Shown here: one piece after another, positions 13,926 through 28,136 of the stretch
How positions within the stretch are numbered: position 1 is the stretch's first letter
How the letters are laid out: the number at the start of each line of letters is the position of its first letter
Source: Cladophialophora immunda
Lineage: Eukaryota; Ascomycota; Eurotiomycetes; Chaetothyriales; Herpotrichiellaceae
Assembly: GCF_000835495.1 (NCBI RefSeq)
Contig: NW_015622544.1
Span: 4,430,855 to 4,494,854 of the forward strand
Direction of reading: 5' to 3'
Length of the DNA: 64,000 nucleotides
Program-made: the position numbers and the translations under genes
The notes under the pieces: model-generated
Seen by the model: only the letters and a program-made list of their open reading frames with translations
Told to the model about the DNA's origin: nothing
The model's database searches: none

Positions 13926-15760
13926 CTAGAGATACTGATTGGTGGGCATGGGTAGACCCCACAATCCGGGGCCAAGGCTTTTCGTCATGTTGTCGGGTGG
14001 TATGTTGTACCACTGGTCCTGAGGGCCGATCGGAGGCATAGGCGTAAATCCAATCAACTTCTGGTTCCCAGGCGTCTCAATATACCTCTTTCTATGTCGC
14101 TGATTGGCCAGTTGCTTGGGACCCAGACTTTGCGGAATTTTCATGTACTTTGGAATGTCGCAGTCGAATTCCGGATAGTTGCCAAACATGTCTTTATCAA
14201 AGGTGAAGGATGTGAGGTCATTGAGGTGGCGGCGGAACAGCTCTGACAGCTGATACCTATTGGTGGATCGATTGTGGACATAACAATCACGGAGGTCATA
14301 TGGCCAGACGAAGCGGAAATGTTCTGCCAGCAGAGACCAGAACCTGTTGGAACAATACTTGTGATAGTGATAGACAAATCGCTCACGGATACCCGGCCTA
14401 GGAACGAAGAGATCAGGAAATGATGGTCTCGTGGAAGCTGGGTCGTCACCTACCAAACGAAAAAGTCAATGGCATAGGCATGTTTCTGAGCCACTTGCGA
14501 CGGCCTAGCGCTGGTCAACGTCGTCGCTACAAGCAGGAAACGAGGAGGTGGAGTGGAGATGAATGTTTACCTTGGCCTATACCATGCAGGCAGCCTCAAG
14601 AGATTCTCCTCTGAGGGATTGAGGTGGCACTGTATCTTGACGTCAGCCACGGCCGTGGGTCAGTCTCTGGAACAACAACAACATACCTGGAGCAGCAAGT
14701 TCATGATGCAGAGGACGGCGAGGCGATCGACGTCGCGAGACTGGGCCCATACTTTCTCGTCGACTTCGCGCAAGATGCGCCACGAGGCGCTTAAGTTGCC
14801 CATGGTGGACTCATTCCAGCCTTCGATGACGGCGCGGACGGCGATGTCGTCGGCAGTGCCATCGTTCTTGAGCTTGGGCCAGTTGTGCGTCTTCCAATCC
14901 ATCAACGTCTCGCTCACAAACGCCCACATGTTGGCCTGCTTGTGAGGATGGAGGTGGTGGGCGCACGTGCACGAGGACCCACTTTCCGGAAACGAAAGAG
15001 GGATAGAGGTGGTGGCTGTGGCTGCTACGGTGATTGTGTTACTGTGGTGGGGGCCAGCCATTTCGTCCATCTGAGGTGGTGCTTGCCCTAACCCCATCGG
15101 ATTGAAGGTTTGTTCATCGAACATGGCATCCGAAAAGTTTAAATTGAGGCTATCATCGACAGGAAAGCCGTATTCAGCCTCACCGTGGACGTTGCACACG
15201 GGCCCACGCGGCGGACGGCCAGCGTCGCCCGTGCCTTCGAGCTGGAGATCGTCCGCGACCGCCGGAGACGCCTTGAGCGGACTGAGGAGAGAAAAGGACG
15301 GAGAGAACTCGGCGCGCTCTGGCAAGCTTTGGTTAGTTGCTGGCACAATGTCACCAATGTCACCAATGTCACCCCAAGCTGATGCGGGCTGTAACCTACC
15401 CTTCTCCGCCATGTCCAGACGGGCCTCGGACTCCTCGTCCAGGTTGATCTGGGCCAGCGAATATATCGTCGCGAGCTTGCGTTTGAGCGACCGGCATTCG
15501 GTGCGGGCGCTCTCGAGCTGCTCCCTCAGTTCTCTGCAGACCTCGTTGCCGGACTGGCTCGTCAGATGTGCCACCAGAGACTCCAACTCGGCGATCTTGT
15601 TCTTGGTGCGGGCTCGAGCCTGGCGTTGACAGTGTCGGTCGGCCACCCGTTTCTTGTCGCGTCGCTTGTCGCTGATCTGCTTGGGCTTGCGGCCCGTCGG
15701 CGGAGGGCCGGTTGACAGCTGGAGGGGCAGCAGCACCTCGGCGGCCATGGTCTCCATCAC
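13926..15760 (-). CDS. bZIP transcription factor with DUF3425-type C-terminus
   Basis: Four exons by splice logic: 14687-15760, 14571-14629, 14454-14510, 13926-14397; 553 residues. The basic region at about 30-60 reads DKKRVADRHCQRQARARTKN and runs into a leucine zipper (KIAELESLVAHLTSQ). The middle is low-complexity. The C-terminal half matches the fungal DUF3425 module: WAFVSETLMDWKTHNWPKLK, then CHLNPSEENLLRLPAWYRP, then a restored FFVWPGIRERFVYHYHKYCS. Exons 2 and 3 (59 and 57 nt) are only apparent after splicing. A 60-nt in-frame stretch around 15335-15394 could be an optional intron. It is the first gene left of the catabolic cluster and the only transcription factor nearby, so local regulation is plausible but unproven. 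Confidence 0.87.
14638..14645. promoter_or_regulatory. TGACGTCA palindrome (CRE/bZIP site) in intron 1 of the bZIP gene
   Basis: A perfect 8-bp CRE palindrome lies within the first intron (14630-14686). bZIP proteins bind such sites, so autoregulation is conceivable. One exact 8-mer is expected by chance about once in 64 kb, so the evidence is weak. Confidence 0.25.
15347..15373. repeat. three tandem AATGTCACC units
   Basis: A 27-bp perfect tandem repeat inside exon 1 of the bZIP gene. It encodes GDIGDIGDI on the minus strand if the stretch is retained in the mRNA. Confidence 0.9.
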
Positions 15761-16626: not shown

Positions 16627-18211
16627 TCACAGCTTCTCAATCCGCGCAACGTACTCAAACCGTTCTGTCGCAGGCACCCCCCACTCCTTCGCCAATTCAT
16701 GGTATCTCTTCTTGTATCCGAGATGTTTCGACCTGACCTCAGGTGCGGTTTTCAGCTGATCTCGCCCGACTTGATGCTTGTGTGCAGCGTCTGGCCCATC
16801 CGCGATCCGTGCGAACCTGGCGTACGTCCACTGCCAATCCATTAGCTCGAGTCGAGACCGCTCTTCGCCAAGTGTGTCGAGAGATGTGGGAGGGGATTGG
16901 GGGGCGAATCGCCCATTCTAGACAAAAGAGGGCCTTACAGCTTCAGGAAGGAATGTGTGCTGCGTGAGTCCTTGCCCGGCGAACATTTGCATGCACTCAT
17001 CCACAATCTTGGTCACGCCCAGAGGCACCATGATCTTCGCCTGTGCGATAGCATATCTCCCGGCGACGTTGCCCATCAGGTCCATGGTCTCTGCGGCGTT
17101 CAGAACAACCAGGCGAAGAGCGTCGATCTCCATGCGCATGTCGGCAAGCCGCTCGATGTTACTGTCGAACTCACCAATTAACTTGCCGCGGGGTTTCTTT
17201 CTCGCATCCGTAGCTCTGATGAGTGCATGTTCGTATGCGCGCTCAGCTTGACCAAGCAGACGCATGCTCCAATGACATTAGTCCTGGGGGAAAGCATGGC
17301 ATTTTGGAGGCCAACTCACCAATGGTGTATTCTCCCAGGTCCTAGTCGACCTTGAGCGATTTCAAATGCCCGGCCTTCTCCCAGAATGATGTTTTCCACG
17401 GGAATCCTCACATTTTCATACACATACTCACCATGTCCCTCTGGAGCACAGTCATAGCCCATGATCGTCATGTATCGAACCGCCTTCAATCCTGGAGTAT
17501 CCCTGGGCACAATGACGGTCGAGTGCCGCTTCCAAGGATCCGGATTGTCTGGGTCAGAGCATCCCATCAGGATGTAGAACTTGACATCCTCATTTCCAAT
17601 CCAGTTGCCATACAGTTTTCGGCCGTTGATCACATACTCGTTGCCTTCCCGCCGAATGCGGCACGAAATGTTCGTTGCATCGGAAGCAGCGACATCGGGT
17701 TCTGTCATTGAGTAGGCGGACAAGCATTCTCCGTCTAGAAGAGGCTGCATCCACTTCTTCTTCTGCTCCTCTGTGCAGTACTTGGCCAAAAGCTCAATGT
17801 TGCCGGTATCCGGAGCATGGCAATTGAGCGTCTACAACGTTGCGTTAGGGTTCATCTTTGTCTCTCGAGCGCTTTGCTACCTACCATCGGAGCCCAATAA
17901 ACTCGCCCAAGAAGCTCGCAGCAGCATGAGTACTCGAGGATCGTGAGCCCCGGGCTTTCTTTGAAGTGGTTCGGGAGGAAGAGATTGAACAATCCTTCTG
18001 CTTTTGCCTTCTTTCTCAGCTCCTTGATGTATGGCGGCATTGCCCAAGGTTTCTCTGCCAATTGCGCCTTGACAATGTGATCTGCCGGAATGCATTCATT
18101 TTCGACCCAATCGTATACTTTTGCAATGATGTCGACTGCTTTGGGGCTCAGTTTTGTCCTGTACCCTGGAGGAATCCGAGCCAGGGATGGGTGATCTGGT
18201 ATGGTGGTCAT
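16627..18211 (-). CDS. acyl-CoA dehydrogenase, ACAD10/11 (LvaC) type
   Basis: Four exons: 17885-18211, 17320-17831, 16939-17266, 16627-16860; 466 residues. FAD- and substrate-binding elements are clear: SAYSMTEPDVAASDATNI and [20 protein letters not shown], the latter restored by splicing and characteristic of the ACAD10/ACAD11 branch. Where ordinary short/medium-chain enzymes have the catalytic Glu (Y-E-G-T), this protein has ADGPD, an Asp, also the ACAD10/11 pattern. That branch works with an APH-fold kinase: a 4-hydroxyacyl-CoA is phosphorylated and the ACAD partner removes phosphate and moves the oxygen towards C3. Here the kinase domain is not fused but encoded at 26626-28136. The last intron (78 bp, GAG acceptor) is the least certain join. 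The C-terminus is IEKL, at best a weak peroxisomal signal. Divergent from the CoA ligase gene across 489 bp. Confidence 0.88.
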
Positions 18212-18700
18212 GGTGTTGGCTTCCGTCTTGCCGTACGAGCCCTCGTGGTTGTGAGAGTCAGAATCCACATGGCATGAGGCTGTTGTTGGCCGTTTTGAAC
18301 CAACGCACCGGGCCCACAGATAGCTAGACACCGGTTGCTGCGAGGCCCCCAGAATGGAAGGCCGAGGTAAACAGCGGCGCGCAGCTGCGGAGATGGTCCC
18401 CAGCACGGGCCACCGCTGAGTGTCCGCGACTTCGACGCAATCGACGTCGTCGGTGTGACTTGGCTGCGTGGTGTGCTGCACGCAGTCTCTATCCATACCG
18501 CCATGAATCCAACCATGTCGTCTCGGTTGTTGGTGCGTCCCACACGGCAAACAGCTCATGGCATGCGGGTCGAGCCAAGCTCCCCGGGATATGTATGCCT
18601 CTTGATATAGACCTTCATGCTCGTTTCCCAAATGTGTTCGTGCTGGAGGCCGTGTTAGACGTTGATCCTTGCTCTTTTGTTGTTTGTTTGCGCCAAAAGA
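18212..18700. promoter_or_regulatory. divergent promoter, ACAD gene / CoA ligase gene
   Basis: A 489-bp head-to-head intergenic region shared by the acyl-CoA dehydrogenase (minus) and acyl-CoA ligase (plus) genes, which suggests co-regulation. A GATATAG element lies near 18604. I found no copy of the 20-bp palindrome of the other divergent promoter. Confidence 0.55.
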
Positions 18701-20520
18701 ATGCCTTTCGTCTCCAAGATCGCGTCTCTGCCCTTGCAGAAATGCAGCATCCTGGACTTCCTGTTCCCGCCCGATCAACCTGTGTCCGATAAGCCACTCT
18801 GGATCGATGCCGCGGACACGTCGCATTGGAACTCTCCCAAGAGTGCCTTGGCTTTGGCCAAACGGTTTGGTTATGGTCTCCAGCAGCTAGGCGTTCAGTT
18901 CGAGGATAGATGCTTGCTCTTCACACCCAATCATATTATGGTTCCGGTGTCGTATTTTGGCGTTGTGGGCATTGGTGCTGCTTTCTCTGGAGCCAACCCT
19001 ACGTTCACTGAGAAAGGTGGGTAGAGCTCTGAAAAGAGTGTGACTGTTGAGATGAACATCGAGCTTATGGTTGGTGGCCAGAATTGGAATATCAAATTAC
19101 CATCTTGCAGCCCAAGATTATGCTTGTGCACCCGAGCTTGATCCCGACCGCAAAGGCTGCCGCCGCCAAAGCAGCTGTTCCGGGGATGAGGTTGTATGTC
19201 TTCTCAGACCGCGAGACAGGAACCATCGATGGCCTTCCAGATTGGAGGGACATTCTGGGGACGCCCGAGCAGGGTGAGCGGTGGCAATGGAGGAAGCTCC
19301 CTGGCGAAGAGGCAGTGAACACCATTGCTGCCATCAACTTCTCGTCTGGGTACGTCGCCTGACCCGGACGCGTTTGTGTGTGACGCTGACGAAGGCTCAG
19401 CACCACTGGGCTGCCCAAGGGCGTCTGTGTGTCTCATTTCAACGTGGTCTCGAACGTCATGCAGATCAAGTCTCTCTACGACTTCGAACCTTCGGAGAAA
19501 TGGGCGGGATTCCTGCCTCTGTATCACGCCTATGGACAGTGCTATGCTATCCTCATGGCAACAATCAATCATATTCCCATGCTCATCATCAGCAAGTTCG
19601 AGTTCGTCGAGTACCTTCGCATCATCCAGGAGCACAAGATCACCCGACTACAAACCGTCCCTCCAATTCTAATCATGTTGAACAAGAGGCCAGAGACTGC
19701 AAACTACGACCTGAGCAGCGTCAAGGAGATCCTATGTGGAGCCGCGCCGGTTTCGAGAGAGCTTGAAGCCAACGTGTCCAAGAAATTCAACGTCCGGATC
19801 ACGCAGGGATGGGGCATGACCGAGACGACGTGCGCCGTGTCTGGAATTCCGTACTATGAGAAGTCCCGGACTGGCTCCGTGGGAGTTGTCATGCCCAACA
19901 CCGAGGTGAAGATCATTACGGATGATGGCAGGGAGGCAAGTATAGGGGAAGCGGGAGAACTCTACGTCCGCGGCCCGCAGGTCTGTCTGGGGTATTGGAA
20001 GAACCCACAAGCGACGCTCGACTCATTCGATCCTGTGACTGGGTGGCTAAAGAGCGGAGACGTGATGGTCATGAGCCATGACGGATGGATGGCGATCGTG
20101 GATCGAAAGAAGGTATGTACAGTACCCAACTCGGTGGATATCGTGCATCATAAGCTAACTCGTGCGCCGCAGGAACTGATCAAGGTGCAAGCGCTTCAAG
20201 TGTCGCCCGCAGAGGTCGAAGCAGCACTGATCGAACATCCCGACATTGCCGATGCTGGCGTCGTCGGCATTACCTTTGACGACGGCGAATGGCCCAGAGC
20301 ATATGTGGCCCTGAAGGAGGAGTCCCGCGGGAAGGTCACGGAGAAGGAGGTCCAGGAGTGGCTGAACGCCCGTGTGTCGAAGCACAAGCGTCTCGTCGGA
20401 GGCGTCGCATTCATCCCTGAGGTGCCTCGTCTGCCCAGCGGCAAGATCCAAAGGAAAGTCATGAAGGAATGGGCGAAGCGGGACGCGATGACCGTGTTCA
20501 ATTCGAGGCCGAAGCTTTGA
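18701..20520 (+). CDS. 4-coumarate:CoA ligase-like acyl-CoA synthetase
   Basis: Four exons: 18701-19016, 19082-19349, 19401-20112, 20173-20520; 547 residues, the usual length for this AMP-binding family. Splicing restores the P-loop FSSGTTGLPKG. Downstream are GWGMTETTCAVSG (adenylate binding), ELYVRGPQVCLGYWKN, GWLKSGDVMVMSHDGW, and the hinge IVDRKKELIK across intron 3. The A10 motif PRLPSGKIQRK carries the catalytic lysine. It should activate a carboxylic acid to its CoA thioester using ATP; fungal members take aromatic, fatty or short branched acids, and the substrate cannot be read here. The C-terminus is SRPKL; PKL is a non-canonical peroxisomal signal in some fungi. In the cluster it would supply the acyl-CoA for the dehydrogenase, SDR and kinase. 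Confidence 0.92.
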
Positions 20521-20667
20521 TACGGGTGTCTCGGGAGTCTACTGTACACCAGAGAGAACACATAAAGCGTGATGGATTTTTCTTCAAGACCCGGACGACG
20601 TTCATGAGATACTTTGTTAAAGGGTATTCTTTATAGTGTTTATGAGCGCCATACAATGATTATTTAT

Positions 20668-21816
20668 TTATGCCATACTGCCCAGTTTGTAGGGCAACCC
20701 AGAGCTCAATCCACCATCCACGGCCCACACCTGGCCGTTGACATAGCTGGCTTCATCCGTGCCCAGGAACAGTGCAACTCTCGCGATCTCATCCGCCACC
20801 GCGCCGCGCCGGAGCGGACAGAGCTGTCCGACTTTGTGAAGCGTGCCCCTTTCCCGGGCTGGACCATAGAAGACCGGCTCCGTCATGCCCGAGTGCGTCA
20901 TCCCCGGTGCAATGGCGTTGCATCTGATATTGCGGCCCGCGTACTGGAAACACGCAGTCTGCACGAGGCTGACGACTGCGGCCTTCGCGGCGCTGTAGTC
21001 AGTGCTGCCCCCATTGGAACGGAGACCGGCCGTTGAAGAGGTCGCGATGATGGAGCCACTGGAGTAGGGCTTGTCTTTGCTGGTGACCTGCATTGCCGGG
21101 CCCGCGTGTTTGATGGCCAGAAACACACTGTGTCCAGATTCATCGAAGTGTCAGACCAGCGACTTGAAGGGCTGGGTTGCTTGCTGCTCCTCTCAACAGC
21201 ACAGTAGATATATGTGGGACCTACCTGGTCAAGTTCGTCCTGATGGTCCGCTCAAACTCGTCGACCTCCATGTTCCAGACTTCCTTCCAGGTGCCCGAGT
21301 TTGCGGCGTTGGCAAAGAACACGTCTAGTCGCCCGTAGGTCTCCAGGGCATGGGCGACGACAGCCCTGACCCCTTCCTCGTCTCCCGCGTCAAACTTGCG
21401 GGCATGGACAGCCACCTTGGGGTAGAGTTCGTTCATCTCCTCCACATGGAGGTTCAGGTGGTCGTCCATGTAGTCGCAGATGTAGACTGCTCGCGCACCA
21501 TTCCTGGCGTACTGGTGAGCCGTTGCCCGGCCCATGCCAAGTGGTGAGTTGCAGCCGGTGATGATGACCACTTTGCCTTGAGCACGTCTGGCACATGCCC
21601 ATTTGTCAGACCTCGTTCATCCTCTCAACCAGAAGCTGCATGAAATGAAGTTCTGAGGAGGGGTTTCAGCTCGGAAACTCACTGTCCCACTGAGTCTCCA
21701 GCCCGTCGGGCGACCCGGGGCATTCCTTTGTAGGTCCCTTCATCGATGATTGGGGGTTGCGCGATCTGGCTGGTGAGCTGTTCCAGGCGCCTCTTGGGCG
21801 TTGTTACTGTCGACAT
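20668..21816 (-). CDS. short-chain dehydrogenase/reductase (SDR)
   Basis: Three exons: 21683-21816, 21225-21587, 20668-21127; 318 residues. The first exon gives a leader from MSTVTTPKRRLEQL to RRAGDSVGQ. Splicing leads into GKVVIITGCNSPLGMGRA, the Rossmann nucleotide-binding motif. The catalytic set is complete: IIATSSTAG (Ser), DYSAAKA (Tyr and Lys), with NAANSG replacing the usual NNAG. A C-terminal GTDEASYVNGQVWAVDGGLS is typical of classical SDRs. It should reduce a ketone or oxidise an alcohol with NAD(P)(H). In the bacterial levulinate pathway an SDR (LvaD) reduces 4-oxo-acyl-CoA to 4-hydroxyacyl-CoA; by context this protein could do the same, but the family is too broad to be sure. It converges with the CoA ligase gene (147 bp apart). 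Confidence 0.9.
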
Positions 21817-22335
21817 GCTGGACGCGAGACTGGAGCACTCACACCAGGGAAACGACAATTTCCGAGGTCATGGAGAACACGCCACTCCAACCTGGCGAAC
21901 GTTGATATCAACCCAGTTCCTCGGTACCGAGGGCGGCAGCAACGTCCCTTGGCGCCTCCTCAGCTTCAACCTTGGATTAAAGACTCTGTCTGACTCGTGT
22001 TAGGCTGACTGCTGTCCGGGATTTGAGTTTTACAATCAGAGAGCGGTTTTCGGTTTCCAGGCTTGAAGCGAGCCCACTGTGGAGGATTGGTTTTCTTGGT
22101 CCCCGTGCGGCCCGCGGATGCCAGAGAAATAGGGGGCGTTGGGGGTTCTCTGGGGCACCTGGTACCCCGGGATGGGCCTCACAAATTTGACACCTTTTAG
22201 TCCCACAGTCAGCCACCAAACAAGGTTTCACTCTTCCATTTGGCTAAACGATGGACACTTCTATTCTGTTAGGGCTCAGCCCATGCCTCACATTCTCCAT
22301 TGGAACTCTCCCTGTCCAACCGTCCAACGGCCCTG
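21817..22335. other. intergenic: SDR promoter and 3' flank of the cyclase gene
   Basis: About 520 bp. It contains a GC-rich patch near 22125-22170. No gene or clear operator seen. Confidence 0.45.
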
Positions 22336-23549
22336 CTAGAAGACGGCTATCGCGTTAGGGGGACTCGCAATCCCTCCTGGGGTGTTCAACGGCGCGCTGG
22401 TGACGAAAAAGCTCCATCGTTGCTGCTTCTCACACTCGGCTGCCAACGCCTCCAAGTCCCACAGCTCCCCGAGCGGCATCCCCCAGAGCGCAAGGACAAA
22501 GTCGTGCAGACCTAAGCAGGACCAGGTGAGTCAGTGGGGGGGGGGCCAGGTCAACGAAAGAGTGAGGCTTGCGCAGTTGACTTACACCACGGTAGCTGCG
22601 GTGGCCAGGCTTCAAAGCCAATGGCATCACCACCAACGGCTGCAAAATGAGAGTTCCAAATCCACTCGACGACCTCCTCTGAGCCATCCACTCCCACGTA
22701 TTCCGATCCATTCTTGACCTTGGCGACGCGCTCTTCGGGGCTGTGTTCGTTGTACCATTTGATCCAACCCGACCTGACGAGCAAGATGTCCCCGGGACGC
22801 AAGACCACGTTTTCTTCTTTGGCAATGTCCTTCAAAACGTCCAGGGTAATGCGGTGCCGGGTCATGGCATCGTACGTAATGTTGTGGCGAGCTGCATAGG
22901 CGACATAATCTAGGAGGACGCCTCTCCCGACGATACCTCCGCGCTTGCTCCAGTCTTGGGAGAAGGTCAAACACAGGGCTGGAAAACAAAAAGATCACTT
23001 ACGGTCAATCCCAATACGGTCCGTTTTCAAGAGCTCGTCGTGGTGTATGCGATTATAATACAGTCCCGTCCCGCTATGGCCCCAGTGTCCTGGCAGGGGC
23101 ATATAAGCTCAATGCACGGGCGATTGTGGTTTCCATGGGTTGTATACTTAGACCATCCCATTGACTCCCGGACTGAGTGTTAATACTAATCTCATCGTCG
23201 TATGAATACCAAGGAGACCCCTTGGCCCGCCAGTCGGTGATGTTAACGGTCGGCTTAATGCGGTCAAATCCCGGCTCATGGACGTGGTCAATGGGCCAAC
23301 TATGCGAGTCAATCGGTTGTCATCAGGCTTCAGCCCTACGCCAAAGGTACCTCAGACGTACTTGAGAACAACACTCTTGCCGGTCTGGATCTCTTCTCGG
23401 GCCTTGACCACAGTCTCGGGCGTAAGGAGGTTCAAGGTGCCTATCTCGTCTCGGGTGCCATCCTTGTCAAACAGGCCCCAGGCGCAGCCATGTGGCATAC
23501 CCTCTACGGGTGGCAGATCTTTCCACGACGGCAGTTTGAGGTCAGCCAT
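22336..23549 (-). CDS. cyclase-family metal-dependent hydrolase
   Basis: Five exons: 23362-23549, 23148-23299, 23003-23089, 22586-22954, 22336-22511; 323 residues. All four introns are 48-74 bp and frame-consistent. The protein matches the fungal branch of the putative cyclase family (PF04199; relatives include kynurenine formamidase and isatin hydrolase). Characteristic stretches are GCAWGLFDKDGTRDEIGTLN, the spliced SQWDGLRHWGHSGTGLYYN (metal-ligand region, replacing the HxGTHxD form), HHWSKRGGIVGRGVLLDY and GELWDLEALAAECEKQQRW. Members hydrolyse cyclic or acyclic C-N and C-O bonds; the substrate is unknown. Being next to a transporter and upstream of acid-activation enzymes, it could open a lactone or similar ring to a hydroxy acid. 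That is inference. Exon 4 uses an AAG acceptor. Divergent from the permease gene. Confidence 0.88.
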
Positions 23550-24065
23550 GGCGAGTGGCTAGAAAGCGCGATATGCCCGGACCCGGAGTCTCACTGGGTA
23601 CGAGGTACAACAAATTCACAATCCTCCTCGCCTTCCACGCTTCCGCTTATGAATCCCTGCATGCCAGCCAATTTCTGGGCCAGCGAGTCGCGCGTTGGCG
23701 ATGTCAACCAGCAGGGGTGTCAGGGCGCCCTGACACTGATAACAATCTGCAGCTTGCTCGATTCTCGACGCGCCGCCTATGGGAACCCACGAGTGGCGGA
23801 TGATTCTGACTCGCAAGAGAAGAGTAAGACACCTATTTCCCCACAGGTGCCCGCACCCGCGGATGCATCTAAGGGAGCACCATGCACGCACCATGCAAGC
23901 ACCATGTGGGACCGCTAGACCGGGAAGCCCTTCGCCTGGGGAAGCCGCCCGGGTTCATATACAGCTCTAGACCTCGGGCAAACTCTCTCAAATCTCGAAC
24001 GACTTTGCTCCAGGAAAACACTGCAGCGCAGACTCGTCTCAGTTCCAGTCTCAGAAGCTGCCAAA
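23550..24065. promoter_or_regulatory. divergent promoter, cyclase gene / MFS permease gene
   Basis: A 516-bp head-to-head region. It holds the perfect 20-bp palindrome at 23717-23736, a run of imperfect CACCATGCA repeats at about 23876-23908 and a CATATAC element near 23956, about 105 bp before the permease ATG. Confidence 0.6.
23717..23736. promoter_or_regulatory. perfect 20-bp palindrome, candidate operator
   Basis: GTGTCAGGGC followed by its exact reverse complement, with no spacer. It lies 181 bp upstream of the cyclase ATG (23549) and 330 bp upstream of the permease ATG (24066). A dimeric regulator could bind it. No second copy was noticed in the window. Confidence 0.5.
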
Positions 24066-26026
24066 ATGCCGCACCTCGAGGGCGTTAAGAAGCAAAAGAT
24101 CAACGCATACAATGTGTTGTTGCTGTGTTTTATCGGCCTGGGGTCGTTGACCTATGGTTACACAGCCTCGATCATTGGGACAACCCTGGGTTGGTACCAC
24201 CCGGCTGAACCTGACTCCTCCTGCCCAAGACTGACGCTCCCAATCAACAGGTCAACCATCTTTTATTGCCTACTTCGATCTCGCCACCAGAAGCAATGGA
24301 ACAGACCTGATAAGTACTATGAACGGCCTGTTCCAGACCGGTGGCACTATTGGCACGTTGATGCTTCCCTACGTTGCCGACCGATGGGGTCGGAAATGGG
24401 CTATCGTCCTGGTAGGTGGAATTGGCGGTCGTTCGTTGTATCTGAGCAAGCTGACATTTTGATGCAGCCGGCAGTCATTGCAATGATCTCGGGGGCCTTC
24501 TTGGCTGGCAGCACCAATGTTGGCGAGTTCTTGCTCTTCCGATTCTTTGCAGGTGCCTCGGCGTTTATGATCCTTGCAGCTGTTCCAGTTGAGTCCCCTT
24601 GCCTGTTTCCTGGTGACTATCCATTACTCACGCTTGGTAGATTTGGATGTCGGAAGTCGTGCCGGTCGATTTGAGAGGTGCTCTGGTCGACGTTCACGCC
24701 GTCTTTCTTATTCTCGGGTACACCATCCAAGGATGGGTTGGATTCGGCTTCTACTTCTGGGATGGGGGTGAGGATACATGGCGACCTCCTCTAGCTCTTC
24801 AATGCGCGTGGCCTCTGCTCCTGCTTTGCGGTATCTACTGGGTTCCCGAATCGGTACGTTGTCGCTGCACGCTCAAATAAATCGAGGCTAACAGGACGGC
24901 AATCTCTAGCCTCGTTGGTTAATCATGCAGGGCCGCATTGATGAAGCAAAAGATATCCTCTTCAAATTGCACTCCGACCCCAGCGACCCGGACAACGAGT
25001 TTGCCAACGCAGAGTACTACCAGATCCAAAAGCAAATCGCCATCGACAAGACACTTGGCAACTCGTGGATGCACATGATTAAGAAGCCATCCTACCGGAA
25101 ACGATGCCTGCTCGCAGTCGGAACTACAGGGATCATTCAATGCTCTGGCGTGTTGGTTATCAACAGTAAGCCCTCGTCCGGCATTCTTTTCGTCAGACTT
25201 GACTGACTTTGGTCAGACTATGGACCGACCTTGTATGCCAACCTTGGGTTCAGCCCGGTCAAACAGTTGCTCTATCCTGCTGGCTGGCTCACTCTCACCC
25301 TGGGCATCAACATCATGGCCATGGCCCTGGTCGACCGTTTCCCTCGAAACCGATATATGGCATTCGGTGTCTTGGGCTGCATGGTCACCCTCATCATCGA
25401 GGCCGCCTTGGTTGCGAATTTCGTTCCATCCAACAACCAATCTGCCCTCCTTGCGGCTGTAGCGATGTTCTACATCTTCCAAATCTTTTACGGATTCTGC
25501 CTTGATGGTAAAGCCCCCCACGTATACACGCATGTCAAATTTCCCGAGCAGGCTTCTAACTGGCTTCCGTCACTAGGCACCCAATTTAGCTACCTCAACG
25601 AGCTGTTCCCCAGCCATATCAGAGCCAAAGGCGTCTGCTTGGGAGTTTCGATGATCTCGCTGATGAACATCATCTGGCTCCAGGCCGCTCCAACTGCTTT
25701 CAAGTAAGTTTGCCCCCCAGTAGCCTATTGTAGATGCAGTTTGCTCACCCACAAACAGGACGATCGGGTGGAAGTTCTACCTCGCATTCATCATTCCCGG
25801 GACGATTGGCGGATTCATCATGCTGTTCTTCTTCCCGGACACCAAGGGCATGCCACTGGAGGAAATCGCCGCCATCTTCGGCGATGCCGACGAGGTGGCC
25901 ATCTACCAACGCGAGATTGAAATCGACCACGTCACCCACACCATCATCACCCACGAACACGGTGGGGAGAAGACCACCACCCCCGTTGTCACCGAGGATC
26001 TCAAGACGGCCGACGATACCGTTTAA
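24066..26026 (+). CDS. MFS permease, sugar-transporter family
   Basis: Eight exons: 24066-24189, 24251-24411, 24468-24587, 24641-24853, 24910-25165, 25217-25507, 25577-25703, 25759-26026; 519 residues in one consistent frame. Sugar-porter signatures are present: MLPYVADRWGRKWAI after helix 2, LLFRFFAGASAF, the spliced VPESPRWLIMQGRIDEAKD, FSYLNELFPSHIRAKG and a C-terminal FFPDTKGMPLEEIAAIFGD. Fungal members of this branch move hexoses, lactose, quinate or other small carboxylic or polyol substrates by proton symport at the plasma membrane. Here it most likely imports the cluster's growth substrate. The tail is rich in His and Thr. Intron density (seven introns of 50-69 bp) is typical for the family. 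Confidence 0.9.
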
Positions 26027-26625
26027 ATCGGCAGGGGACCGGCGTTTTTGCCCTCTTGATAATGTCTTACCAAACGATATTTCTCCGACGAACTCTGAAC
26101 TGGTAATCCGATGCAGGCCACCAGCACTCCGACAATCGACGTTCACAGCTCGTAGATTACATAGGATGCATGGATGGAAGCTGCAGCACTTGGTCGCGTT
26201 TTCAACGGATACCCTATGGTATTTTTGATCTGGCGCATATATAAATACATTAGTTTTGAGCCGGGGGGGTTTTATCCAGCCCCCCGAGCCTCGTAGCAAG
26301 CGCGCTCAATAACCACACTCTGCTATACGCACTGTAATCACTACATTTCTCGGGCGCTTTGACATGACATCTCGCGTATATACCCCAGAGGGGCTCAGGT
26401 ACCCTCACATCCGAGGCATTTTGCCAAGCAATGCTGGATATTTCGCTTCTGCGAGCGTGAGAGAGCCCCTCGAGGAGTAATAATTAATATAAGAGGGTTG
26501 ATAAATCCAGTCCTCTTTTCCTCGGTCGTGGATGATTTTCCCATATCTTCCATCTGTTCTGCTCAGCCAGCGAGGTGTCATATCACCCCCATATATTGAC
26601 CCACAGTCGAAGAGAGTCTCTCACA
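26027..26625. other. intergenic: permease 3' region and kinase promoter
   Basis: About 600 bp in which the permease and kinase genes run in tandem. It includes the G7/C6 hairpin at 26262-26286. AT-rich patches follow near 26480-26500. No gene seen. Confidence 0.45.
26262..26286. repeat. short GC hairpin downstream of the permease
   Basis: CGGGGGG and CCCCCCG arms separated by about 11 bases (TTTTATCCAG core). It could form an mRNA hairpin in the 3' UTR; a role in 3'-end formation is only a guess. Confidence 0.5.
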
Positions 26626-28136
26626 ATGAGACAGCCGATCGACAGGGAGTCGCTGGAGCGCTATCTCGCGCAGCACGTCCCTGAGATCCAACCCCCCGTC
26701 CAAATCCGACAGGTACGCGAGGACAATATCGCCGACCTCCACAAACTCTACTATTCTCCCCTTTCTGCCCTTCCACCCTTTGGATTCACTAACGTGTCGG
26801 GTTCGGGGGGAGGGCCGGTCCCCTCGCGGGCCTCGCTCAACCCCCCAAACCACCGAAACAGTTCGAATACGGCCAATCCAACCCGACGTACCAACTGACC
26901 GACAGCCGCGGGCGGCACTTTGTGCTGCGCAAGAAGCCGCCGGGGAAGCTGCTCACGACGGCGGCGCACCAGGTCGAGCGCGAGTACCGGGTCATCAGCG
27001 CGCTGAACGGCACCGACATCCCCGTGCCCAAGGCGTACTGCCTGTGCGAGGACAGCGCCGTCATCGGCACGCCGTTCTACATCATGGAGTTCCTGGACGG
27101 GCGCATCTTCCAGGAGGCGTGCATCCCGGGGGTGTCGCCTGAGGAGAGGAGCGTGATGTACGTTCTTAACCTTTTCGTTCATACGCGGAGGGATCCTCCT
27201 GTCTCCTGTCCTTTTTAATTTGTCCAGTCTGCTTGGTCCGGCTGCAGGACCGACAAGGACCGGACCAAGTTCTTGCAAGACCGTGTCACTCTGACTTCGT
27301 ACGAGAGGAACAGGTGGAAAGAAGCCGTCCAGACCCTGGCGCGCCTCCACCGCGTCGACCCCGTCTCGGTCGGGCTCACCAACTTCGGCAAACCGCGCGG
27401 CTTCTACGGCCGCCAGATCCGCACGCTGAAGCGGCTGGACGAGTCGTACTCGAAGGTGGTCGACGTCGAGTCCCACGAGGCCGTGGGCCGGATCCCGGGC
27501 ATGGACGAGATGGTGGCGTTCTTCGAGGAGGAGGGCCGCGGGCCGCGGGATCGCGGCGCCATCACGCACGGCGACTACAAGATCGACAACTTGGTGTACC
27601 ACAAGACGAAGCCGGTGATTATTGGGATCCTCGAGTGAGTCCTGCCCCATCGTCCTCCCCCCTCTTCCTGCCAACGTACCGATCCTCCCCTTCCTCCACA
27701 AAAAGCACATCATACCAGGAAAATGACCGGCGTGTATAGCTGGGAGATCGCGACCGTCGGCCACCCGCTGTCCGACCTGAGCAACCTCACCATGCCGTGG
27801 ACGGTGACGCAGGGCTTCAAGGAGATCAAGACGCACTCGCACCCGGCCTTCGACGTGGGCGCCGGCCCGCCGGGCCTGCCCACCAAGCAGCAGTGCCTGG
27901 AGTGGTACCGCGAGGTGGCCGGGTGGGATCCGCGAGGCGAGATCGCGTGGGCCGACGCCTTCGCCATCTTCCGCACCGGCGTCATGATCCAGGGCATCGC
28001 CGCCCGGTGGGCGGTGCGGCAGGCGAGCGGGGAGGGCTCGTCCGCGGCCGCACTCGCGCTCGAGAGGTTCCCCTACGCGCGCGCGGCGCTGAAGATGGTC
28101 AGGGAGTTCAAGGGCGCCGGGGACTCGCGGTTATAG
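26626..28136 (+). CDS. APH-fold phosphotransferase (ACAD10/11 kinase-domain / LvaA type)
   Basis: Four exons: 26626-26712, 26862-27157, 27248-27634, 27740-28136; 388 residues. Kinase landmarks: [12 protein letters not shown] (nucleotide loop), [13 protein letters not shown] (ATP-binding Lys), [33 protein letters not shown], the catalytic loop [11 protein letters not shown], and [20 protein letters not shown], whose Asp is restored only by splicing intron 3. The last motif is the hallmark of the ACAD10/ACAD11 N-terminal kinase domain and of bacterial LvaA, which phosphorylate the hydroxyl of 4-hydroxyacyl-CoA. Its presumed partner is the dehydrogenase at 16627-18211. The C-terminus is Ser-Arg-Leu, a canonical PTS1, so a peroxisomal site is predicted. 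Third-codon GC is visibly higher than in neighbouring genes. The first intron is long (149 bp). Confidence 0.9.

Follow-up and report, generated by a model that had tools for sequence, protein, structure and literature searches.

A candidate 4-hydroxy acid catabolic cluster with separate ACAD10/11-type kinase and dehydrogenase genes in the fungus Cladophialophora immunda

The analyzed window, a 64 kb stretch of the 42.2 Mb genome of Cladophialophora immunda (NW_015622544.1:4,430,855-4,494,854, on the contig labeled C4), contains six contiguous genes encoding an acyl-CoA dehydrogenase (ACAD), a coenzyme A (CoA) ligase, a short-chain dehydrogenase/reductase (SDR), a cyclase-family hydrolase, a major facilitator superfamily (MFS) permease and a kinase of the aminoglycoside phosphotransferase (APH) fold. 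By sequence, the kinase and the ACAD belong with ACAD10/11. We read the six genes, with moderate confidence, as a fungal cluster for the breakdown of carboxylic acids with a 4-hydroxy (or 4-oxo) group, or of their esters and gamma-lactones; the chemistry is very likely of this class. The novelty lies in a kinase and an ACAD that are separate and probably peroxisomal, and in the hydrolase. No fungal cluster of such make-up was found in the literature searched, a scope that takes in few subscription journals. The phosphorylation route of ACAD10/11 was itself assigned in mammals only in 2024-2025 (PMC11342911, PMC12440821).

Gene content

The six genes contain introns and fill positions 16627-28136 with intact spliced frames and complete predicted proteins (Table 1). 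An earlier note, made from the sequence alone, had proposed the same six genes over this span, and the spliced frames and Pfam both bear it out: all six proteins score above the curated cut-offs, under names that agree with the note. The motifs it quoted are present in the spliced proteins, GILDWE being formed only by splicing. No specific NCBIfam model reaches its cut-off for the kinase or the ACAD. The proteins are predicted models spliced by hand from genomic DNA; every intron used is GT..AG, and one intron border each in the ACAD and the kinase was set by alignment to paralogues. The Pfam and Protein Data Bank (PDB) rankings of these two proteins were run with early models, each with a brief surplus segment at a single intron border.

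Table 1. Features of the cluster and its surroundings (window positions; aa, amino acids; 4CL, 4-coumarate:CoA ligase; ORF, open reading frame)
Feature	Position	Strand	Details
Possible neighboring transcription factor	13926-15760	-	bZIP-like basic region by eye; DUF3425 24.7 bits vs cut-off 27.1 (13926-14456)
ACAD10/11-type acyl-CoA dehydrogenase	16627-18211	-	exons 16627-16830, 16939-17266, 17320-17831, 17885-18211; 456 aa; R271, H279, R282, D400; tail -EKL
CCTCGG candidate site, shared ACAD/ligase promoter	18362-18367	-	motif match, suggestive
4CL/luciferase-like acyl-CoA ligase	18701-20520	+	exons 18701-19016, 19082-19349, 19401-20112, 20173-20520; 547 aa; tail -PKL
Classical SDR	20668-21816	-	exons 20668-21127, 21225-21587, 21683-21816; 318 aa; tail -SMA
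Three CCTCGG/CCGAGG candidate sites upstream of SDR	21862-21932	.	at 21862, 21919, 21927; motif match, suggestive
PF04199 cyclase-family hydrolase, QxxxQxDxxxH type	22336-23549	-	exons 22336-22511, 22586-22954, 23003-23089, 23148-23299, 23362-23549; 323 aa; tail -AVF
CCTCGG candidate site, shared cyclase/MFS promoter	23972-23977	+	motif match, suggestive
Sugar-porter-type MFS permease	24066-26026	+	8 exons; 519 aa; tail -DTV
Two CCTCGG/CCGAGG candidate sites upstream of kinase	26411-26525	.	at 26411, 26520; motif match, suggestive
APH-fold kinase, ACAD10/11 kinase type	26626-28136	+	exons 26626-26712, 26862-27157, 27314-27634, 27740-28136; 366 aa; D215, N220, D235; tail -SRL

Placement of the dehydrogenase and kinase

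In the PDB, the cluster ACAD scores highest with 4hr3 (321.9 bits) and human ACAD11 (2wbi, 306.4 bits), followed by two other ACAD11 chains (299.7 and 297.4 bits); the next family, medium-chain acyl-CoA dehydrogenase, reaches 116 bits. It is identical to human ACAD11 at 162 of 387 aligned positions (42%). The kinase has five PDB matches in all: 3dxp (E = 1.4e-62), ACAD11 (3.4e-47 and 4.4e-46), 9o56 (9.1e-34) and 3ats (8.6e-7). The 9o56 chain, which bears the name aminoglycoside phosphotransferase, ranks below ACAD11. For both proteins the top solved structures are ACAD11 and counterparts from bacteria. The kinase shares 116 of 323 aligned positions (36%) with mouse ACAD11 and keeps the HGDxxxDN and DWE motifs. 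These rankings, together with the ACAD11-specific residues described below, uphold the assignment of both proteins to the ACAD10/11 type, encoded by separate genes that lie 8.4 kb apart.

Residues R626, H634, R637 and D753 of ACAD11 have been tied to the 4-phospho group and catalysis, and the first three are reported absent from conventional ACADs (PMC12440821). They correspond to R271, H279, R282 and D400 of the cluster ACAD, and the spacing of 116 was checked on 2wbi. All four occur in 39 of 39 aligned family members (the cluster ACAD, two paralogues, human ACAD11, 4hr3 and 34 bacterial proteins) and in neither of two other ACADs of the same genome.

The fungal proteins also group together in trees. 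Four fungal kinases form one group with support 0.996 among 85 sequences (with 80 bacterial kinases and mouse ACAD11), and the cluster kinase pairs with the C5 paralogue (support 1.0). Among 41 sequences, including human ACAD11, 4hr3 and 34 bacterial relatives, the three fungal ACADs form one group (support 0.895), and the cluster ACAD pairs with that of C6 (support 1.0). Paralogues whose models are incomplete (the C2 kinase, the C6b ACAD and the C3 ACAD) were not placed in the trees. LvaA, LvaC and ACAD10 sequences stand outside both trees, so that their relation to the fungal proteins is judged from identities in the literature: LvaC is reported to be 62% identical to ACAD10 and 56% to ACAD11, with 29% for LvaA (PMC11342911).

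The arrangement resembles two known systems. As in animal ACAD11, both enzyme types, the key residues and peroxisome-type tails are present (PMC12440821, PMC11342911), whereas the animal protein is a kinase-ACAD fusion and the fungal kinase and ACAD are separate and clustered with a ligase, SDR, hydrolase and permease. Likened by published description rather than by Lva sequences, the bacterial lva operon (LvaA, LvaC, LvaD, LvaE) also combines a CoA ligase and an SDR with separate kinase and ACAD (PMC11342911, PMC12440821), and all four lva-type components occur together here. Unlike the operon, the fungal cluster also contains a hydrolase of family PF04199 and a sugar-porter gene, and it is eukaryotic, spliced and has divergent promoters.

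A scan of genome contigs with the kinase matched at least 593 stretches, at least 570 of them encoding relatives; the best 80 of those listed, from bacteria, were kept with flanks of up to 8 kb. An ACAD11-type ACAD (>250 bits) lies in the flank of at least 34 of these 80 loci, a lower bound given the presence of short contigs. An SDR (>=100 bits) is found at 12 of the 34 ACAD-bearing loci versus 4 of the 46 others (P = 0.005). A plasmid search gave 258 records matching the kinase, all below 60% identity.

Paralogous loci

ACAD10/11-type ACADs are found at five loci of the genome (the cluster, C6:3125408, C4:1973317, C6:1246450 and C3:5739644), as are ACAD10/11-type kinases (the cluster, C2:5627143, C5:481411, C1:7259428 and C7:3426284). 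Only at the cluster does a kinase lie near an ACAD; by chance, about 0.012 pairs within 10 kb are expected (25 pairs, 42.2 Mb). The combination of ACAD and CoA ligase recurs at C6:3125408, where the two genes are no more than 8 kb apart. This ACAD is intronless and 67-69% identical to that of the cluster. The C6 ligase matches the cluster ligase at 57% over 309 positions and 43% over 256, and its summed pieces (598.7 bits) rank third among the cluster-ligase paralogues, after 614.7 and 608.0 bits. The neighbors comprise a Zn2Cys6 factor, the CoA ligase, an SDR, a GST-like ORF, a glycosyltransferase-like ORF and a sugar porter. The C6 locus does not simply duplicate the cluster, because the best paralogues of the cluster MFS and SDR lie elsewhere (C7:1768463, 77%, and C1:3382105, 58%, respectively).

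Other paralogues have surroundings of their own. The C2 kinase (C2:5620000-5635500) is near an AtuA-type gene (acyclic terpene utilization), a TRI12-like MFS and an ACAD of another kind, and the best paralogue of the cluster ligase is about 22 kb from this locus. The C1 kinase (C1:7252500-7266500) has as neighbors a CoA ligase, two hydratases (one of MFE-2/MaoC type and one enoyl-CoA hydratase) and a Zn2Cys6-type ORF, possibly a second beta-oxidation cluster. The C3 ACAD (C3:5739644-5740992) has GLGRIHH where the others have GPGRIHH, lacks a -KL/-RL tail and may be decaying.

Predicted compartment

Under the strict rule, a type 1 peroxisomal targeting signal (PTS1) is a C-terminal [SAC][KRH][LM]. 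Within the cluster, -KL/-RL tails are carried by exactly the three CoA-stage enzymes, the ligase, kinase and ACAD. The paralogous kinases end in -AKL, -ARL, -PKL and -SML, the ACADs in -PRL, -SKL and -AKL, and the C6 ligase in -PKL. Taking the kinases, ACADs and cluster ligases together, a -KL/-RL end is thus found in 10 of 11, versus none of 13 controls (five other APH proteins, three cyclases, two MFS, one SDR and two other ACADs); the count becomes 10 of 12 with the degenerate-looking C3 ACAD (-EIA). The tail readings cover 15 of the 20 loci in the promoter comparison described below, as well as the two other ACADs; the C2 kinase tail and all control tails were read in a single frame past the match, disregarding introns. 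Five of the 11 members conform to the strict rule, with 0.23% expected for each. Two MFE-2-like proteins of the genome end in -PKL and -MKL, and two further ligases in -PKL and -ARL. Separately, a stretch at the SDR N-terminus that resembles a type 2 signal does not, on visual inspection, match the rule for such signals.

To us the most striking new finding is that such tails sit on the three CoA-stage enzymes, although two of these tails, on the ligase and the ACAD, miss the strict rule and only the kinase -SRL follows it. Since these enzymes have peroxisome-type C-termini, CoA activation, phosphorylation and phosphate elimination probably take place inside peroxisomes. ACAD11 is peroxisomal in mammals (PMC12440821). 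The other three tails suggest that import, ester or lactone opening and ketone reduction would occur outside. With an SDR that has no peroxisome-type tail, the order of the lva pathway, in which CoA is attached first and reduction follows, is not obviously kept.

Promoter sites

The Far/CTF1 site is reported to be CCTCGG (PMC5068947). All four cluster promoters contain it, with 7 sites in 2.1 kb compared with 36 in the whole window, as do 8 of 8 paralogue promoters tested; as background, it is present in 34% of random pieces of 600 bases and, among other promoters, in 5 of 16. In the cluster and paralogue promoters, CCGAGG ranks first of 2080 6-mers, with 21 sites versus 5.3 expected. The contrast shrinks against non-peroxisomal members of the same large families: the site is present in 12 of 12 versus 7 of 13 promoters (P = 0.01), and its density is 21 sites per 6.9 kb versus 11 per 7.2 kb when the comparison is with 12 promoters from other genes of the APH, cyclase and MFS families (P = 0.06). 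As additional controls, 3 of 5 MFE-2-like promoters and 2 of 2 ligase-paralogue promoters carry it too. Promoter regions were set by hand and do not include that of the C3 ACAD; the start of the C1 kinase is uncertain. We take the FarA/FarB-type sites in the cluster promoters as suggestive only.

Proposed pathway and alternatives

In the pathway that we favor, the MFS permease would import the substrate, the cyclase-family hydrolase would open an ester or lactone, and the SDR would reduce a 4-oxo acid to the 4-hydroxy acid. The ligase would then form the CoA thioester, the kinase would phosphorylate the 4-hydroxyl, and the ACAD10/11-type dehydrogenase would remove phosphate by elimination; the resulting 2-enoyl-CoA would enter beta-oxidation. 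The earlier note had cast the genes in such a 4-hydroxy acid pathway, and the kinase and ACAD types, the ligase, the SDR and the cyclase all suit these roles. It had also suggested levulinate; nothing seen selects levulinate over longer 4-hydroxy acids or lactones. Among fungi, Amorphotheca resinae ZN1 is reported to lower levulinic acid from 3.0 to 0.6 g/L (PMC2998489), and the Fusarium verticillioides work on lactones, as reported, concerns other clusters (PMC10512309). A more specific version has two compartments, with cytosolic uptake, lactone opening by the cyclase and ketone reduction, and a peroxisome-targeted split ACAD11 module (ligase, kinase and dehydrogenase) under fatty-acid control, acting on plant-derived 4-hydroxy acids, gamma-lactones or mid-chain hydroxy acids. 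This version is put forward only tentatively.

The ring-opening step proposed in the earlier note is more plausible than that note could know. The sole PDB relative of the cyclase at E = 0.001 is 5ibz, the bacterial metagenomic enzyme MGS0169, a metal-dependent cyclase-like esterase with weak isatin hydrolase activity whose Q-x-x-x-Q-x-D-x-x-x-H motif is common to the trans-dienelactone hydrolase of P. reinekei (PMC5341072). The two proteins are identical at 106 of 284 aligned positions, and the fungal cyclase has all seven active-site residues named for MGS0169 (R76, Q105, Q109, D111, H115, H268 and E281) (PMC5341072). With these residues and the motif kept, an ester or lactone hydrolase is a fair guess.

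Several observations, in addition to the two tails that miss the strict rule, weigh against a dedicated six-gene pathway. The PF04199 family is unusually large in this genome (74 exon-level matches) and occurs near the bacterial kinase in only 1 of the 80 loci (0 of 34 ACAD-bearing, 1 of 46 others), so the cyclase may be a bystander. The SDR and MFS families are likewise huge (126 and 132 matches), and the SDR and MFS at C6:3125408 are not close to those of the cluster. No kinase match was found within the 18 kb read around C6:3125408, and a CoA ligase (>=150 bits) is no commoner at ACAD-bearing bacterial loci (11 of 34) than at others (12 of 46). The kinase, ACAD and ligase could instead handle 4-hydroxyacyl-CoAs from the turnover of hydroxylated fatty acids such as ricinoleate or cutin-like monomers, next to an unrelated cyclase, SDR and MFS, all three from large families and without peroxisome-type tails. 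Two ACAD11-like genes of Rhodosporidium toruloides, RTO4_14567 and RTO4_10408, show defects on ricinoleic acid, and deletion of RTO4_14567 abolished growth on it over 96 h (PMC5922974); ricinoleic acid fed to microorganisms yields 4-hydroxy-C10 (PMC12440821). These fungal genes are likened here by description rather than sequence, and the passages of that report on them describe no cluster (PMC5922974). Against unrelated neighbors stand the enrichment of SDR genes beside the bacterial kinase-ACAD pair, the CCTCGG sites common to all four cluster promoters, which argue weakly, and the SDR and sugar porter near the second ACAD and ligase locus, though such genes are common. On balance we consider this explanation rather unlikely, while allowing that the cyclase, SDR and MFS may or may not be members of the pathway.

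The same chemistry might also serve acids other than aliphatic ones, namely side chains of aromatic or terpenoid compounds that bear a 4-hydroxy or lactone group. Among solved structures, the ligase is closest to 4-coumarate:CoA ligases, with luciferases close behind; this similarity does not fix the substrate, because long-chain FadD-type ligases score nearly as high. Of the kinase paralogues, one is near the AtuA-type gene and a second near a gene for an aromatic-ring hydroxylase, and in A. niger FarA is required for ferulic acid use, which peroxisomal CoA-dependent oxidation also serves (PMC10512302), but nothing aromatic is encoded within the cluster itself. An aromatic or terpenoid substrate seems improbable to us.

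A fungus that encodes the kinase and the ACAD separately, each at five loci, lends itself to genetic work on the purpose of the route, on the reason for the fusion in animals and on whether fungi apply the route to lactones and hydroxylated plant lipids. In some cases, genes labeled aminoglycoside phosphotransferases in fungi may likewise encode acyl-CoA kinases.

Neighboring genes

The bZIP/DUF3425-like ORF at 13926-15760 adjoins the ACAD gene and is a possible regulator, at most a candidate cluster member; its 14660-15760 part has no Pfam match. Four minus-strand ORFs flanking the cluster on both sides (8792, 12522, 28728 and 30103) have a common C-terminal pattern, C.YHVH...C. Two of them have no Pfam match and two match Pfam BTB; the cluster may sit within a BTB gene array.

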